A stretch of 64,000 bases of DNA from Burkholderia sp. BCC0322 (lineage in GTDB: Bacteria > Pseudomonadota > Gammaproteobacteria > Burkholderiales > Burkholderiaceae), in assembly GCF_902833045.1 (NCBI RefSeq), contig NZ_CADFDU010000008.1, positions 233,018 to 297,017 on the forward strand, written 5' to 3'. Positions 2,601 through 38,083 of the stretch are shown here, piece after piece (position 1 is the first letter of the stretch; the number at the start of each line of letters is the position of its first letter). Made by a program: the position numbers and the translations under genes. The notes below the pieces were generated by a model. That model was not told where the DNA came from. It did no database searches and worked only from the letters and a program-made list of their open reading frames with translations.

Positions 2601-4022
2601 ATGTCCCAGCAACGTTCTCTCACGACAGCCGCCCTGAGCCAGTGGCGCGTGCCCCTCACCGCCTTCGCCGCCGCCTGCCTGCTGGCCGCCTGCGGCGGCG
2701 GCGGCGTGAGCTCGCCGCCGACCAGCAGCAACAACAACCCCAGCAGCACGAGCGGCACGCCGAGCACGAGCGGCACCAGCGGCACGTCAACCGGCACCAA
2801 GGGTGTCGTCAGCACGGTTGGCCAGACAGCCACCGACCTCGGCAGCACGGTCGGCAACATCAGCGTGCCGGGCCTCGGCGACGGCGTGACGAAGGGCGTC
2901 GGCAGCACGCTCTCCAGCACCGGCACGATCGTCGGCGCAGCCGCCGATGCCGTGAGCAACGGGCTGGGACAGATCGGCACGACTAAGGATCCGGTCGGCA
3001 CAACCGTCGCTGGCCTCGGCAATGTGGTCGGCGCGACGAGCAACACGGTGTCCGGGCTGAGCTCGACGGTCAAGGCACTCGGCACGGGCCCGCTCGCGCC
3101 GCTCGCGCCCGTCACGACCCCGGTCGGCACCGTGCTCGACACGGTGGCCAACGGCTTGACGGCCGCCGGCACGACGATCGGCTCGACGCTGTCGTCGGGC
3201 GCGGTGCAGCAGGTGACGCAGCCGCTCAGCTCGGCGATCACGCCACTCGTGATCACCGCCGGCCAGGTCACGCAACAGGTCGGCACGACGACCGGCCTCG
3301 GCCAACCCGTCTCGGGCCTGCTCGGCCAGGTCGGCGGCGCGATCAGCTCGGCCGGCAAGCAGGTTGGCGGCACGTCAAGCCAGCCGCTCGTCGGCGACGT
3401 GGGTCAACTCGTGACTGCGGTCGGCAACACCGTGACCAACGCGGGTGGCCTCGTCAACCCGAACGGCCCGAACGGCGCGGCACCGATCCCCGGCCTGATC
3501 ACGAGCCTCGTCGGCGGCTCGACGGCGACCGTACAGAACGGCACGTCGTCGGGTTCCGGCTCGACGAATCCGCTCGGCGGCCTGCTGTCGGGTCTCGGCT
3601 CGACGCCGCTCGGCTCGCTCACCGGCGCACTCGGCGGCGCAACCGGCGGCTCGGGCAGCGGCCCGCTCGCACCCGTCACGGGCCTCGTCTCCACCGTTAC
3701 CGGCGCACTGAGCGGTGCGGCGGGCGGCAGCGGCGGCCCGCTCGCCCCGGTCACGAATCTCGTGTCGACGGTCACGGGCACGCTCGGCGGCGCAACGGGT
3801 GGTGCAGGCAGTGCAAACCCTCTCGCGCCTGTCACCGGTTTGCTGAATACTGTCACCGGAGCAGTTGGCGGTGCAGCAGGATCCGGTGGCGCGAGCCCGC
3901 TCGCGCCGGTCACGTCGCTGGTCGGCAGCGTCACGGGTACGGCGACGTCGGGCGGCGGCTCGACGGGTCTGCTGGCACCGGTAACGGGATTGCTGGGTAC
4001 GCTGGGTAGCGTTGGCAAATAA
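2601..4022 (+). CDS. Collagen-like repeat lipoprotein, second paralogue
   Basis: This 473-residue lipoprotein is a clear paralogue of the gene at 977. Both share the central block around LGQxGxTKDPxGTT, the QQVTQxxSSAIT segment, and C-terminal LAPVTGLVSTVTG units, here more degenerate. The signal peptide ends with the lipobox L-A-A-C followed by a Gly run. The G-T-S tract is much shorter than in the first copy. The ATG at 2601 is preceded by GCGAGGAG; an in-frame start at 2529 would overlap the upstream gene and hide the signal peptide. The 40-bp gap implies co-transcription with the first copy. Its molecular function is unknown. Confidence 0.8.
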   Translation: MSQQRSLTTAALSQWRVPLTAFAAACLLAACGGGGVSSPPTSSNNNPSSTSGTPSTSGTSGTSTGTKGVVSTVGQTATDLGSTVGNISVPGLGDGVTKGVGSTLSSTGTIVGAAADAVSNGLGQIGTTKDPVGTTVAGLGNVVGATSNTVSGLSSTVKALGTGPLAPLAPVTTPVGTVLDTVANGLTAAGTTIGSTLSSGAVQQVTQPLSSAITPLVITAGQVTQQVGTTTGLGQPVSGLLGQVGGAISSAGKQVGGTSSQPLVGDVGQLVTAVGNTVTNAGGLVNPNGPNGAAPIPGLITSLVGGSTATVQNGTSSGSGSTNPLGGLLSGLGSTPLGSLTGALGGATGGSGSGPLAPVTGLVSTVTGALSGAAGGSGGPLAPVTNLVSTVTGTLGGATGGAGSANPLAPVTGLLNTVTGAVGGAAGSGGASPLAPVTSLVGSVTGTATSGGGSTGLLAPVTGLLGTLGSVGK

Positions 4023-4122: not shown

Positions 4123-4166
4123 GGCATTACAAAGAAGACGAAGAGCAAGGCCTACGAGGAAGAACA

Positions 4167-5852
4167 ATGAAATCCAGACTCGACAGATGGATGATGATGC
4201 TCGCCATCGCGGCAGCAGGCACGGCACATGCACAAACACGCGTCGGAGGTAACCCGCTCGATTCCCTACCGCAGATCAACGCGCCGAAAACCGGCCCGAG
4301 CGTGACCGTGCAGGTCGCACCGCAAGCACCCCAATTGCAGGAGTTGTTGTCGCGCCACCTGACACCGACGACGTTCCAGGTCGAAGGCGTGAAGTCCGTT
4401 CCGTTCGAGGAAATCTCGCGTCGCTTCACCCCTCTCGTCGGCAAGGACATCACGATCGGCGAATTGATCGAAACGGCCAACGGCGTGACGAAGCTGTACC
4501 AGGATCGCGGCTACGCGCTGTCGTTCGCGTTCGTTCCCGCGCAGACGTTCGAGAACGGCGTCGTGCGCATCACGGTTGTCGAAGGCTATGTATCGGACGT
4601 CAAGGTCACCGGCAAGCCTGGTGCGATGGAACCGAAGATTCGTGCGATCGCCGCACATATCACTGCCGATCGCCCGCTGCGCCGCGCGACGTTCGAACGC
4701 TACGTGAACACGTTCGGCCTGTTGCCCGGCCTCACGGTAAAGGCGAACGTACCGCCGCCGCAAACCACCGACGGTGCCACGACGCTCGAGCTCGCGGTCG
4801 ACCGCAAGCCGTTCAACGTCAGCACCGGTATCGACTTCAACCACCCGGGCGTCCAGGGCCTCATCACCGCCACGGAAAACGGCCTCACGTCGTTCGGCGA
4901 GCAACTGAGCATTTCCGCGCTGGCGCCGCCGGGGCGCGACAAGCAGACTTATTTCGCATTCAGCGGCGCGGTACCCGTGGGCAGCAGCGGCCTGATCACG
5001 CGCCTCGACGCGAGCACCTATCGCGGCAAGCCGACCGACAACCCGGGGCTGCCGTCATACGTGCAGCGTACGGTCAAGAACGAGAAGCTGGGTCTTTCGG
5101 CATCCTATCCGATATTGCTGAACAACCAGCGCAGCCTGCTCGGCACGGTGTCGGGCTACGCGGCGCACAACGAGGACAACTACCAGAACCAGATCAACGG
5201 CGCGACGCTCGAGAACCGGTCGCAGGTTCGCGTGCTGCAACTGCAGCTCGACTACACGAACGTCCAGCCGAAACAGGTACGAAAATTGAGCGTCAATGTG
5301 GCCAAGGCGTTCGACATTCTCGGCGCGTCGAAATCGCAGGTCGCCCAGGTGAACGGCTCGACGATTACGTACGCCGACCCGACATCGCTGACCTTCGTCC
5401 GCACCGGCGCGACCTTCACGCAAACCAACGAGTGGCCGTTCCGGATCGGCACGTCGGTCTCGCTAACCGGGCAATACAGCCCCGACTCGCTGCCGACGTC
5501 CGAGCAGATCTCGTTCGGCTCGACGCGTTACGCGCTCGGCTATCAGCCGGGCGAAGCGTCGGGTGACTCGGGATGGGGGATGTCGTTGGAGGTCAACCGC
5601 GGCTTCACGCCGGGCTGGACGTATATGAAGTCCGTTACGCCGTACATCGCCTACGATATGGCCCGTGTGTACCTGCACGCGGGTACACCGTCGCCGAATC
5701 GCATGTCATCGGTCGGCATTGGCGTGCGTTTCACCGACAGCCGCTTCTACAGCCTCGACCTGAACGTCGCGAAGCCGGTGGGTGACGCGCCCGTCGAAAG
5801 CGCGTCACGCAGCCCGCGCATCAACGCCGCATTCTCGTATCAGCTCAACTGA
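4167..5852 (+). CDS. TpsB/FhaC-family outer-membrane transporter
   Basis: This 561-residue ShlB/FhaC/HecB-family protein is the outer-membrane partner of two-partner secretion. A signal peptide is cut after about Ala22 (GTAHA). A POTRA region follows at about 65-150 (FQVEGVKSVPFEEI ... VVEGYVSDVKV), then a long beta-barrel. The barrel has the family's loop-6 region RYALGYQPGEASGDSGW at about residues 454-470, but the usual V-R-G-Y/F tip reads A-L-G-Y (456-459), so the conserved Arg is Leu. AGGAAG precedes the ATG. No large haemagglutinin-like TpsA is encoded beside it; its neighbours are the two repeat lipoproteins, which makes them candidate partners or cargo by inference only. Confidence 0.85.
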   Translation: MKSRLDRWMMMLAIAAAGTAHAQTRVGGNPLDSLPQINAPKTGPSVTVQVAPQAPQLQELLSRHLTPTTFQVEGVKSVPFEEISRRFTPLVGKDITIGELIETANGVTKLYQDRGYALSFAFVPAQTFENGVVRITVVEGYVSDVKVTGKPGAMEPKIRAIAAHITADRPLRRATFERYVNTFGLLPGLTVKANVPPPQTTDGATTLELAVDRKPFNVSTGIDFNHPGVQGLITATENGLTSFGEQLSISALAPPGRDKQTYFAFSGAVPVGSSGLITRLDASTYRGKPTDNPGLPSYVQRTVKNEKLGLSASYPILLNNQRSLLGTVSGYAAHNEDNYQNQINGATLENRSQVRVLQLQLDYTNVQPKQVRKLSVNVAKAFDILGASKSQVAQVNGSTITYADPTSLTFVRTGATFTQTNEWPFRIGTSVSLTGQYSPDSLPTSEQISFGSTRYALGYQPGEASGDSGWGMSLEVNRGFTPGWTYMKSVTPYIAYDMARVYLHAGTPSPNRMSSVGIGVRFTDSRFYSLDLNVAKPVGDAPVESASRSPRINAAFSYQLN

Positions 5853-14123: not shown

Positions 14124-14441
14124 TTTACGCTCACCTTTCTTCGAGCTTCTCGAGAAATAGCGGGTTGCTCAACCTTCCGCGACACGGCCTGACCGTTTAG
14201 CGGATTGCGAATCAAGTCTTGCTTGGAAGGACCTAAAACTTGCGTGCGCGCAGCATATCACAGAACCGATACCGAAGTTCACGGCGAAATGTGCCTGAAA
14301 GCACCGCGCGACGGGGTTTTGCCGGATTGCCACGACCCGCAGGAACAGTGTTTTGCAGACACCCCGATTGCGCACTGCGCAGATGCGAAAAAGGCTGCCC
14401 GCAGGCAGCCTTTCCCGTGATGCAGCGAACGGACGAAACGC
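14124..14441. other. Intergenic region sucA / typA
   Basis: This 318-bp region holds the sucA leader (GAAAGGTGAGC ribosome site before the ATG at 14123) and the typA terminator. A TATGCT hexamer near 14256 on the minus strand could be a -10 box for sucA but lacks a good -35. No coding sequence is seen. Confidence 0.6.
14388..14414 (-). terminator. typA terminator
   Basis: On the minus strand AAAGGCTGCC-TGCG-GGCAGCCTTT is followed by further Ts, about 30 bp after the typA stop. Confidence 0.85.
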
Positions 14442-28116: not shown

Positions 28117-28141
28117 AAAAAAAAATGGGCGGAACGCCCAT
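28117..28141 (-). terminator. Terminator within the rimP leader (candidate attenuator)
   Basis: On the minus strand ATGGGCG-TTC-CGCCCAT is followed by nine Ts. It sits about 55-80 nt after the predicted start at 28195 and about 100 bp before rimP. A second GGGCGT upstream in the leader (near 28179-28184) duplicates the 5' arm and could pair with the 3' arm instead. It may also stop read-through from rluB. Confidence 0.75.
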
Positions 28142-28201
28142 CTTCTTACTGGTGGTCGCACCTGAGCCGCACATTGAATCCGTACGCCCAGCGACTTCGC
28201 G

Positions 28202-28230
28202 ATTATAGCGATTTTTGGCGCAAACGCCAA
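28202..28230 (-). promoter_or_regulatory. Sigma-70 promoter of rimP-nusA-infB
   Basis: On the minus strand TTGGCG (28230-28225) and a perfect TATAAT (28207-28202) are separated by 17 bp. The predicted start is near 28195, giving a leader of about 180 nt. Confidence 0.75.
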
Positions 28231-34197: not shown

Positions 34198-34599
34198 ATG
34201 ATGCTGTTCGACGATTTGAGAGATAACGAGTGGGCGCTGGTCGAGGGTCTGTTTTGCTCGGAACCCGCACGGAGTGAGCGGCGCGGCCGCCCCCGGGTGG
34301 AAGCCCGCTCGGTGGTGAACGCCGTGCTGTGGGTGCTGTCGACCGGAGAAGGCTGGTCGAAGCTGCCGGGCCGCTATCCGTCGCCGCCGACTTGCCGCCG
34401 TCGCTTCGACGAATGGCAGGCCGACGGCACGCTCGCCGAAATCGTGAAGCGACTCGGCACGAGCGGTCGGCAGATCTCCCTGCGCGGGCGCATCGGCGCA
34501 AGCGCCGCGAAGCCGCCTGCACCGCCGAGCCGCGACCGGCTGCGCGGCGCCTTCTGGACCAACCCGGAATCCTGGCGCGCGCCCGTGAAGATGGCGTAA
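34198..34599 (+). CDS. Second stand-alone IS5-type transposase N-terminal domain protein
   Basis: This 133-residue protein has the same domain as the gene at 6584: LRDNEWALVEGLF, RRGRPRVEARSVVNAVLWVLSTGEGWSKLPGRYPSPPTCRRRFDEW, then a short extension and an unrelated Arg/Pro-rich tail. No DDE catalytic domain or terminal repeats are visible. It has a ribosome site (GAGGTGAGG) and its own terminator, which argues for a functional gene. Two adjacent ATG codons (34198, 34201) are both possible starts. Confidence 0.7.
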   Translation: MMLFDDLRDNEWALVEGLFCSEPARSERRGRPRVEARSVVNAVLWVLSTGEGWSKLPGRYPSPPTCRRRFDEWQADGTLAEIVKRLGTSGRQISLRGRIGASAAKPPAPPSRDRLRGAFWTNPESWRAPVKMA

Positions 34600-37662: not shown

Positions 37663-37744
37663 TCCCGCCTCCTTCGTCTTGAGAAGCCCGAGAATACGCG
37701 AATCGCGCATCGGCTGCGCCAGCACGGTATCGCACGACAGCCCC

Positions 37745-37778
37745 AAAAAAATAGCCCGCGCTTCAGAGAAGCGCGGGC
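37745..37778 (-). terminator. Terminator of the candidate sRNA
   Basis: On the minus strand GCCCGCGCTT-CTCTG-AAGCGCGGGC is followed by TATTTTTTT. Confidence 0.9.
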
Positions 37779-37955
37779 GAAACCGTCGCCCTACGAGGAT
37801 AGGCGACGGGGCCATCGAGATCCGCACGCTGGCGCGGATCGTCATCAGTTGCGCCGACGCTCGTCGCGCCGACATTCGAAAACGTCGATACCGTTTATCG
37901 GGCGCTCGCGGCACACCCCCGGTTTCTGACGCCATCCTCCCTGTTCCATCAATTT
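37745..37955 (-). ncRNA. Candidate sigma-54-dependent structured small RNA
   Basis: About 211 nt are predicted from the start near 37955 to the T-run at 37745. The RNA can form successive hairpins: GATCCGC/GCGGATC (37819-37840), CCGTCGCC/GGCGACGG with loop TATCCTCGTA (37783-37809) and the terminator stem GCCCGCGCTT/AAGCGCGGGC (37754-37778) with seven Ts. Short open frames (34-38 codons, near 37949-37961) start at or before the predicted transcription start, so a coding role is unlikely. The CCUC-containing loop could pair with ribosome sites. An alternative is a long 5' leader of the ABM gene. Confidence 0.5.
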
Positions 37956-37965
37956 CAACATATAA

Positions 37966-37982
37966 AGCAGGTTGCGTGCCAA
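37966..37982 (-). promoter_or_regulatory. Sigma-54 (-24/-12) promoter of candidate sRNA
   Basis: On the minus strand TTGGCACGCAACCTGCT matches YTGGCACGRNNNTTGCW with two mismatches, keeping GG and GC at correct spacing. It points away from bamC towards the ABM gene. Confidence 0.65.
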
Positions 37983-37997
37983 CTGCACCAAACCGAC

Positions 37998-38010
37998 CAT
38001 CTCGTTGATT
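37998..38010 (-). promoter_or_regulatory. IHF-like site
   Basis: AATCAACGAGATG on the minus strand matches WATCAANNNNTTR with one mismatch and lies between the CGTTACG cluster and the -24 element, where IHF bends DNA at sigma-54 promoters. Confidence 0.45.
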
Positions 38011-38058
38011 TATAAGGGAAAAAATTTTCCGCCGACAATGCCGCATGCGTTTTTCCGC

Positions 38059-38083
38059 CGTAACGCGCGGATGTTACGTAACG
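38059..38083. promoter_or_regulatory. CGTAACG cluster, candidate enhancer
   Basis: CGTAACG occurs at 38059-38065 and 38077-38083, 18 bp apart, with a TGTTACG between them creating the palindrome GTTACGTAAC (38073-38082). The 12-mer GTGACGTTACGT is shared with 755-766 near the lipoprotein promoter. It is 80-105 bp upstream of the -24 element. Confidence 0.5.

Follow-up and report, generated by a model that had tools for sequence, protein, structure and literature searches.

A stretch of 64,000 nucleotides of DNA from Burkholderia sp. BCC0322, called the window here, carries on its minus strand a predicted small RNA gene (37955-37745, 211 nt) behind a -24/-12 promoter and an array of GTNAC boxes. 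Our best explanation, with a probability of about 0.57, is that the gene codes for a trans-acting, sigma-54-transcribed small RNA that is an incoherent feed-forward element of the GtrR adhesin regulon. In this mechanism, sigma-54 RNA polymerase would transcribe the trans-acting RNA from the locus. GtrR, whose gene lies towards the end of the flp/tad pilus cluster, would bind GTNAC arrays at two places, namely between flp and a divergent operon for collagen-like proteins and ShlB, and before the RNA gene. The adhesin genes and the RNA would be switched on together by GtrR. The exposed UCCUCGU loop of the RNA would pair with the ribosome-binding sites of ShlB, of both collagen-like mRNAs and of Flp, and pairing would lower translation, so that the circuit would form an incoherent feed-forward loop and either restrict surface adhesion or set its timing. 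The features on which this explanation is built can be read from the sequences: the promoter, the array, the RNA structure, their conservation, the arrays at both places, the co-occurrence with GtrR and the complementarity to the target leaders.

Promoter and enhancer array of the small RNA gene

An earlier note on this DNA, made from its letters, had described an orphan regulatory RNA under enhancer control, with a CGTAACG cluster, an IHF-like site and a -24/-12 promoter on the minus strand. Comparative alignment showed that the elements upstream of the RNA gene are conserved. The array (38087-38060) is composed of GTGAC-GTTAC-GTAAC (38087-38073) and a further GTTAC (38064-38060), and its segment GTTACGTAAC was identical in 16 of 16 aligned Burkholderia sequences. 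The -24/-12 box TGGCACGCAACCTGCTTTA (37963-37981) was near-identical among the same sequences. Its sigma-54 motif TTGGCACGCAACCTGCTT has GG at 37980-37979, a 10-base spacer and GC at 37968-37967. Enhancer and box were then searched as one pattern (GTTACGTNAC, 75-105 bases, TGGC-N7-YTGC). Exactly one match was found in each of the 16 Burkholderia genomes, always at the RNA locus, and the RNA core was present at all 16 loci (L151-L166). The backward control of the pattern gave one match in 4 of the 16 genomes. These results bear out the cluster and the promoter of the earlier note.

The IHF-like site stood only in part. The candidate site AATCAACGAGATG (38010-37998, minus strand) has one mismatch to WATCAANNNNTTR, which we take to be the consensus of integration host factor (IHF), and the surrounding block CTTATAAATCAA is largely conserved in the 16 aligned sequences, but the IHF pattern ATCAANNNNT had no match in the RNA promoter of the window. 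IHF may bind there, and the site is the weak point of the promoter.

The start of the RNA (about 37955) was set by rule, 12 nt past the GC of the box, and the 211-nt length follows from this rule and the terminator. The comparative evidence supports an enhancer-controlled regulatory RNA, as the note had proposed, and transcription would be expected from the promoter.

Structure, coding potential and loop of the RNA

The region 37743-37958 was predicted to fold more stably than 200 of 200 shuffled sequences (z -2.8). For the structural comparison we used 61 sequences, picked by hand out of 93 non-redundant ones among 150. Their RNAalifold consensus contains three helices, in agreement with the earlier description of about 211 nt with three hairpins and a T-run terminator. 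Hairpin A (GATCCGCGC CAG CGTGCGGATC, 37819-37840) covaries, with two-sided changes in all seven pairs. Hairpin B (37783-37809) is near-invariant: seven of its nine pairs never vary, two vary on one side and none on both. Its loop UCCUCG (37799-37794) has an anti-Shine-Dalgarno sequence. The terminator (37745-37778) is formed by hairpin C (37778-37754) and a run of seven T (37751-37745), and four of its ten pairs show two-sided changes. In total, 114 cells of the alignment carried two-sided compensatory changes, compared with 37.8 in shuffles, and 97.7% of the cells were able to pair, compared with at most 48.2% when the alignment was slid. Thus, a variable frame surrounds a fixed UCCUCG hairpin, which fits the middle hairpin as the working part of the RNA. 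The covariation check that the note had suggested supports hairpin A and the terminator, and the CCUC-bearing loop to which it had ascribed the targeting of mRNAs lies in the near-invariant hairpin, with likely partners that can be named (see below).

No reading frame was common to all 16 sequences checked, and a short peptide was rejected on this ground, as the note had expected; some near relatives do share frames. In summary, the earlier observation is confirmed, and its reading as a structured RNA of the sigma-54 type is supported by the alignments.

Near the 5' end of the RNA, AGGGAGGA (about 37942-37934) is conserved in the 16 sequences, with A or G as the last base, and no conserved start codon was found in this region. 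In the lowest-energy fold of the window's RNA, this 5' AGGGAGGA could cover the loop. Loop accessibility was calculated for 115 sequences retained after filtering by promoter and length. The mean unpaired probability of the loop exceeded 0.7 (open) in 96 of them and fell below 0.3 in 10, and autoinhibition by AGGGAGGA was rejected as a rule. With an open loop predicted for most of the full-length RNAs, the RNA may not need processing. Of the features of an Hfq-dependent RNA, the U tail and the open loop are seen, and Hfq may be needed.

A second array between flp and an adhesin operon

The window contains a second GTNAC array at its left edge (768-726), so the RNA gene is not an orphan as the earlier note had called it: the flp/adhesin cluster, which lies in this window too, has a similar enhancer. 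The array lies between flp and a divergent adhesin operon. On the minus strand, flp (299-81) encodes the pilin and is the first gene of the pilus operon, the rest of which lies beyond the window edge; a predicted RNA site, ACGAGGA, is found at 311-305. On the plus strand, a sigma-54 box TGGCACGACAGTTGCA (899-914) stands between the array and the adhesin operon. The operon begins with two genes for collagen-like proteins with PF15984 domains, at 977-2560 (predicted RNA site CGAGGA, 967-972) and at 2601-4022 (CGAGGA, 2588-2593); for the second, an ATG was taken as the start within the open reading frame listed from 2529. A gene for a ShlB/FhaC-type outer-membrane transporter follows (4167-5852), with the predicted site CCTACGAGGA at 4151-4160.

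Triple GTNAC sites with a GTTAC/GTAAC box were found at the RNA in 14 and in the flp region in 14 of the 16 Burkholderia genomes, and at a single other place (G111:C2:317894). In 8 of the 16, exactly two triple GTNAC sites of any kind were present, one in the RNA promoter and one in the flp region. The backward control of the triple site matched in 4 of the 16 genomes.

At a distance of 129-133 nt from the flp-side array, on the adhesin side, a sigma-54 box with a score of 0.97 (maximum 1) was detected in the window and in all 16 Burkholderia flp loci. Among 28 further loci, two had no flp and two had no array near flp. A box scoring 0.83-0.97 was present in 20 of the other 24, and no such box was seen in L383, L394, L407 and L410. 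Sigma-54 promoters facing flp were also considered, and in most loci none was convincing. This weighs against a common sigma-54 switch for the pilin, as most loci lack a good box on that side; the exceptions scored 0.88 (L409) and 0.82 (L318). Judged from the position of the boxes, the most likely sigma-54 target of this array is thus the adhesin operon, and flp is perhaps served by other means.

In the long leader region of flp, a palindrome TTAGGTGTGCACATCTAA (676-659, minus strand) was observed, and the block that contains it is well conserved across Burkholderia genomes.

GtrR as the candidate activator

We collected and grouped 94 sigma-54 activator genes from five genomes. The RNA enhancer is present in three of these genomes (G103, G105 and G010) and absent in two (G031 and G101). 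In G103 and G010, the genes of one group share a contig with the RNA, at a distance of about 51 kb; the group is missing in G101 and present in G031. In G103, the gene is near the end of the flp/tad pilus cluster, with an array before flp (genes assigned by eye). In B. cenocepacia (G152), the ends of the gene match the published gtrR primers, and the product has 463 amino acids, as published (PMC8174753). The flp cluster is described as two putative operons, BCAL1524-1520 and BCAL1525-1537 (PMC2753556), and GtrR is BCAL1536 (PMC9684580, PMC12838280). Because the primer ends, the 463 amino acids and the place of BCAL1536 inside the flp operon agree, we identify the sigma-54-type activator of the flp cluster from its sequence as GtrR. 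GtrR acts with RpfR, the receptor of the Burkholderia diffusible signal factor (BDSF), and cyclic di-GMP (c-di-GMP) weakens the binding of this complex to DNA, according to a review (PMC12838280).

With an expectation value of at most 1e-100 as the threshold, a GtrR orthologue was detected in 35 of the 50 genomes that match the RNA region. Enhancer and box were present at the RNA in 33 of the 35 genomes with GtrR and in 2 of the 15 without (33/2/2/13; Fisher 2.8e-8). When the genus of the window was left out, the counts were 18 of 20 and 2 of 15 (18/2/2/13; Fisher 1.1e-5). In this table, the module of G038 was placed by GGCCCC alone, and G069 has a variant module. The co-occurrence and the array shared between the RNA gene and the gtrR cluster suggest that GtrR would bind at both places.

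Several observations weigh against this assignment. As the genomes share ancestry, the Fisher values treat them as more independent than they are, and within one Caballeronia-like genus alone the counts were 2 of 4 and 0 of 10 (p 0.066). G052 and G038 carry the enhancer without a GtrR orthologue, their best matches being other activators at 41-42%. Conversely, G031 and G062 have GtrR (75% and 73%) and lack the RNA enhancer. The array at flp is about 12 kb from gtrR, and a 10-mer of the type GTNACGTNAC was found in or within 1.9 kb on each side of only three of the 94 activator genes, L212, L242 (the gtrR of G031) and L270 (where it is inside the reading frame). Another activator group, L219/L271/L300, fits the five-genome pattern better than the GtrR group, as it occurs in three of three genomes with the enhancer and in none of two without. 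Finally, the EMSA probe of bclACB contained no array and only two single GTNAC motifs. GtrR reportedly binds bclACB (Yang et al. 2017).

The RNA could thus be sigma-54-dependent and yet answer to another enhancer-binding protein, with GtrR merely travelling with the same genes. The array in the two genomes without GtrR, the bclACB probe and the exact agreement of the L219/L271/L300 group with the five-genome pattern favor this alternative. However, a like array lies inside the cluster that encodes GtrR, the co-occurrence extends over 50 genomes, and GTNACGTNAC was not found in the 1.9 kb on either side of the L219/L271/L300 genes. We consider another activator unlikely, although no other alternative fares better, and retain GtrR as the candidate.

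Two further observations were made on GtrR. In G031, a Caballeronia-like genome whose RNA promoter has no array, a site GTTACGTAACG...GTGAC...CGTTACGG follows gtrR at a distance of about 1.2 kb (L242). Four genomes of one genus, G079, G107, G115 and G123, encode a second GtrR-like protein with 58-60% identity.

Predicted mRNA targets of the loop

Ten bases of the ShlB leader, CCTACGAGGA, are complementary to the loop and upper stem of hairpin B, UCCUCGUAGG; outside the RNA gene, no other such site exists in the window. When 46 genes of the window were ranked by duplex energy, ShlB was first, collagen-like proteins 1 and 2 were fourth and fifth, and flp was ninth. The rank sum of these four adhesin leaders was 19, and 0 of 600 shuffled loops were as low. 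With four generic anti-Shine-Dalgarno loops the rank sums were 55 to 91; ShlB was first with one of these too.

Leaders of relatives were also compared, and a locus was scored as positive if any candidate start had the motif. ACGAGGA was present for ShlB in 16 of 19, collagen-like protein 2 in 7 of 12, flp in 7 of 21 and collagen-like protein 1 in 0 of 4 leaders. For CGAGG, the counts in the same order were 18 of 19, 10 of 12, 19 of 21 and 2 of 4. In the leaders of ten other genes of the cluster, ACGAGGA was found in 2 of 189 and CGAGG in 15 of 189; these control leaders are approximate, as the starts of tadV, rcpA, cpaE, cpaF, tadB, tadC and tadD are unsure. In a set of 116 genes, taken from the window and from five loci, 5 had ACGAGGA and 15 had CGAGG.

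Five relatives (G003, G005, G007, G016 and G025) have a GtrR homologue of 55-61% identity and no match to the RNA region in a DNA search, G003 being negative with the RNA model as well. In these RNA-less relatives, CGAGG was present in 2 of 9 ShlB and flp leaders, compared with 42 of 46 where the RNA is present (p 5e-5; counted by eye, the flp of L406 being scored from its better start). These results suggest that the loop would pair with the adhesin leaders, and the pairing may repress their translation.

Other results argue for caution. Any motif like the Shine-Dalgarno sequence was present in only 78 of 189 control leaders, compared with 51 of 56 target leaders. Furthermore, ten GtrR-less Caballeronia-like genomes, in which no relative of ShlB was found at an expectation value of 1e-60, keep the RNA core or 3' module. 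As the core is kept without GtrR and ShlB, the RNA must have further uses beyond the adhesin cluster.

These uses could be the main ones. The RNA would then be a sigma-54-dependent, double-hairpin-type anti-Shine-Dalgarno RNA like ncS27 and S17, tuning many metabolic mRNAs, and its fit to the adhesin leaders would be incidental. The layout resembles that of Rfam RF02837 and RF02278, both below threshold, the 3' module persists in the genomes just mentioned, and most of the targets predicted for double-hairpin RNAs are metabolic (PMC5688073). On the other side, the low rank sum of the adhesin leaders was not reached with any of the four generic loops, and CGAGG is rare both in the other leaders of the cluster and in the RNA-less relatives. 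We judge this possibility to be doubtful, slightly more so than the exchange of activators. Far less probable is that the sequence is a leader or attenuator of the downstream gene rather than a free RNA, for although that gene (37662-37372, same strand) encodes an ABM-domain protein and has its start codon about 80 nt past the T run, the terminator is strong and conserved, and a different, apparently convergent gene follows the RNA in L017, L018 and L022 (judged by eye).

The feed-forward RNA of the adhesin regulon remains our preferred reading. A more specific form is held tentatively, at somewhat below even odds: GtrR, linked to quorum sensing and c-di-GMP, would drive both the adhesin operon and an RNA matched to the ribosome sites of this operon and of Flp, and the target leaders would have evolved with the RNA, in Burkholderia and its sister genera. 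If the preferred reading is true, one window would hold a circuit for surface adhesion in which the RNA is a built-in brake on attachment. The known regulator GtrR would gain a candidate DNA site, a sigma-54 operon and a small RNA, these three in one 64-kb stretch, and the GtrR circuit would thereby be directly testable.

Conservation and distribution

With the 381-bp region as a DNA query, matches were obtained in 50 of 150 genomes of the family and in 7 of 25 genera. Outside the genus of the window, most matches span only the final 75 bases or so. The core pattern was found in at least 120 stretches, with a single match in each of the 80 listed, and the records among the matches listed are named Burkholderia, Paraburkholderia, Caballeronia and Trinickia. 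A search with the RNA model across the order matched 23 of 300 genomes. Four matches were strong, all in the family of the window; the remaining 19 (22 to 33 bits) were not counted as members. The distribution suggests that Burkholderia, Paraburkholderia, Caballeronia and Trinickia share an ultraconserved RNA family, below the Rfam thresholds.

At the centre of L185, in a genome of another family, CCTATCCTCGG and a terminator were observed on the minus strand; this is perhaps a distant relative of the RNA. The array-less Caballeronia-like loci L024, L026 and L030 keep the RNA core and share another block upstream, with the inverted repeat TTGCGCA...TGCGCAA and GGACAGTACATTGCATCA. This looks like a promoter replacement, and would be a natural case of a changed promoter with the RNA core kept.

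Neighboring features in the window

The gene on the 5' side of the RNA codes for a protein of 418 amino acids, which we take to be BamC. A short open reading frame on the plus strand (34198-34599) resembles part of a transposase by eye. Known Rfam elements of the window are the sucA motif (14128-14210) and the Bp1_162 small RNA (28118-28214).

Comparison with known systems

No Rfam family was found at threshold for the RNA region. The Betaproteobacteria toxic small RNA RF02278 scored 25.0 bits (cut-off 50), and anti-hemB RF02837 scored 33.7 bits (cut-off 49.5; expectation value 3.5e-6 in a 501-base search). The RNA resembles the double-hairpin or toxic small RNAs (RF02278; ncS03, ncS05, ncS27, ncS62) and Bordetella S17 in that a short hairpin with a CU-rich anti-Shine-Dalgarno loop precedes a terminator hairpin. 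Processing of S17 yields a short 3' form (PMC11722255, PMC5688073). Compared with these RNAs, the conserved core is a different one, and the promoter here is of the sigma-54 type, whereas that of S17 is sigma-A (PMC11722255); S17 was compared through RF02278, not by its own sequence. A hairpin with a CCUC loop and a terminator is also shared with anti-hemB/ncS04 (RF02837).

The available parts of PMC9684580, PMC12838280, PMC5295037 and PMC8174753 name no small RNA as a target of GtrR. The RNA as described here was not found in the open-licence literature, which is weak evidence of novelty. It may already be in the supplementary tables of Sass 2017, where Table S1 has 148 small RNA start sites (PMC5688073), or of Stubben 2014, with 38 novel small RNAs (PMC4035088). 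The locus tags BTH_s15 and BTH_s17 of the latter study could not be tied to the RNA locus. Further literature cited is PMC4603805, PMC10175445, PMC10987360, PMC3521395 and PMC5760752.

In its sequence the gene has what marks a sigma-54-dependent small RNA, namely a conserved GG-N10-GC promoter, a conserved GTNAC array as putative activator sites, and an apparently noncoding product with an intrinsic terminator. GlmY and Qrr are small RNAs of this class. The locus is also like CrcZ and CrcY, which depend on sigma-54 and CbrB, in its -24/-12 promoter, its distant activator sites and its RNA product. CbrB uses TGTTAC/GTAACA subsites with IHF (PMC6296734). The half-sites are alike, but a CbrB-like control was set aside, as CbrAB is reported to be exclusive to Pseudomonads. 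Unlike CbrB sites, the GTNAC boxes here stand in a tight 5-bp tandem. CrcZ titrates Hfq/Crc. In contrast, the RNA described here looks fitted to ribosome sites.
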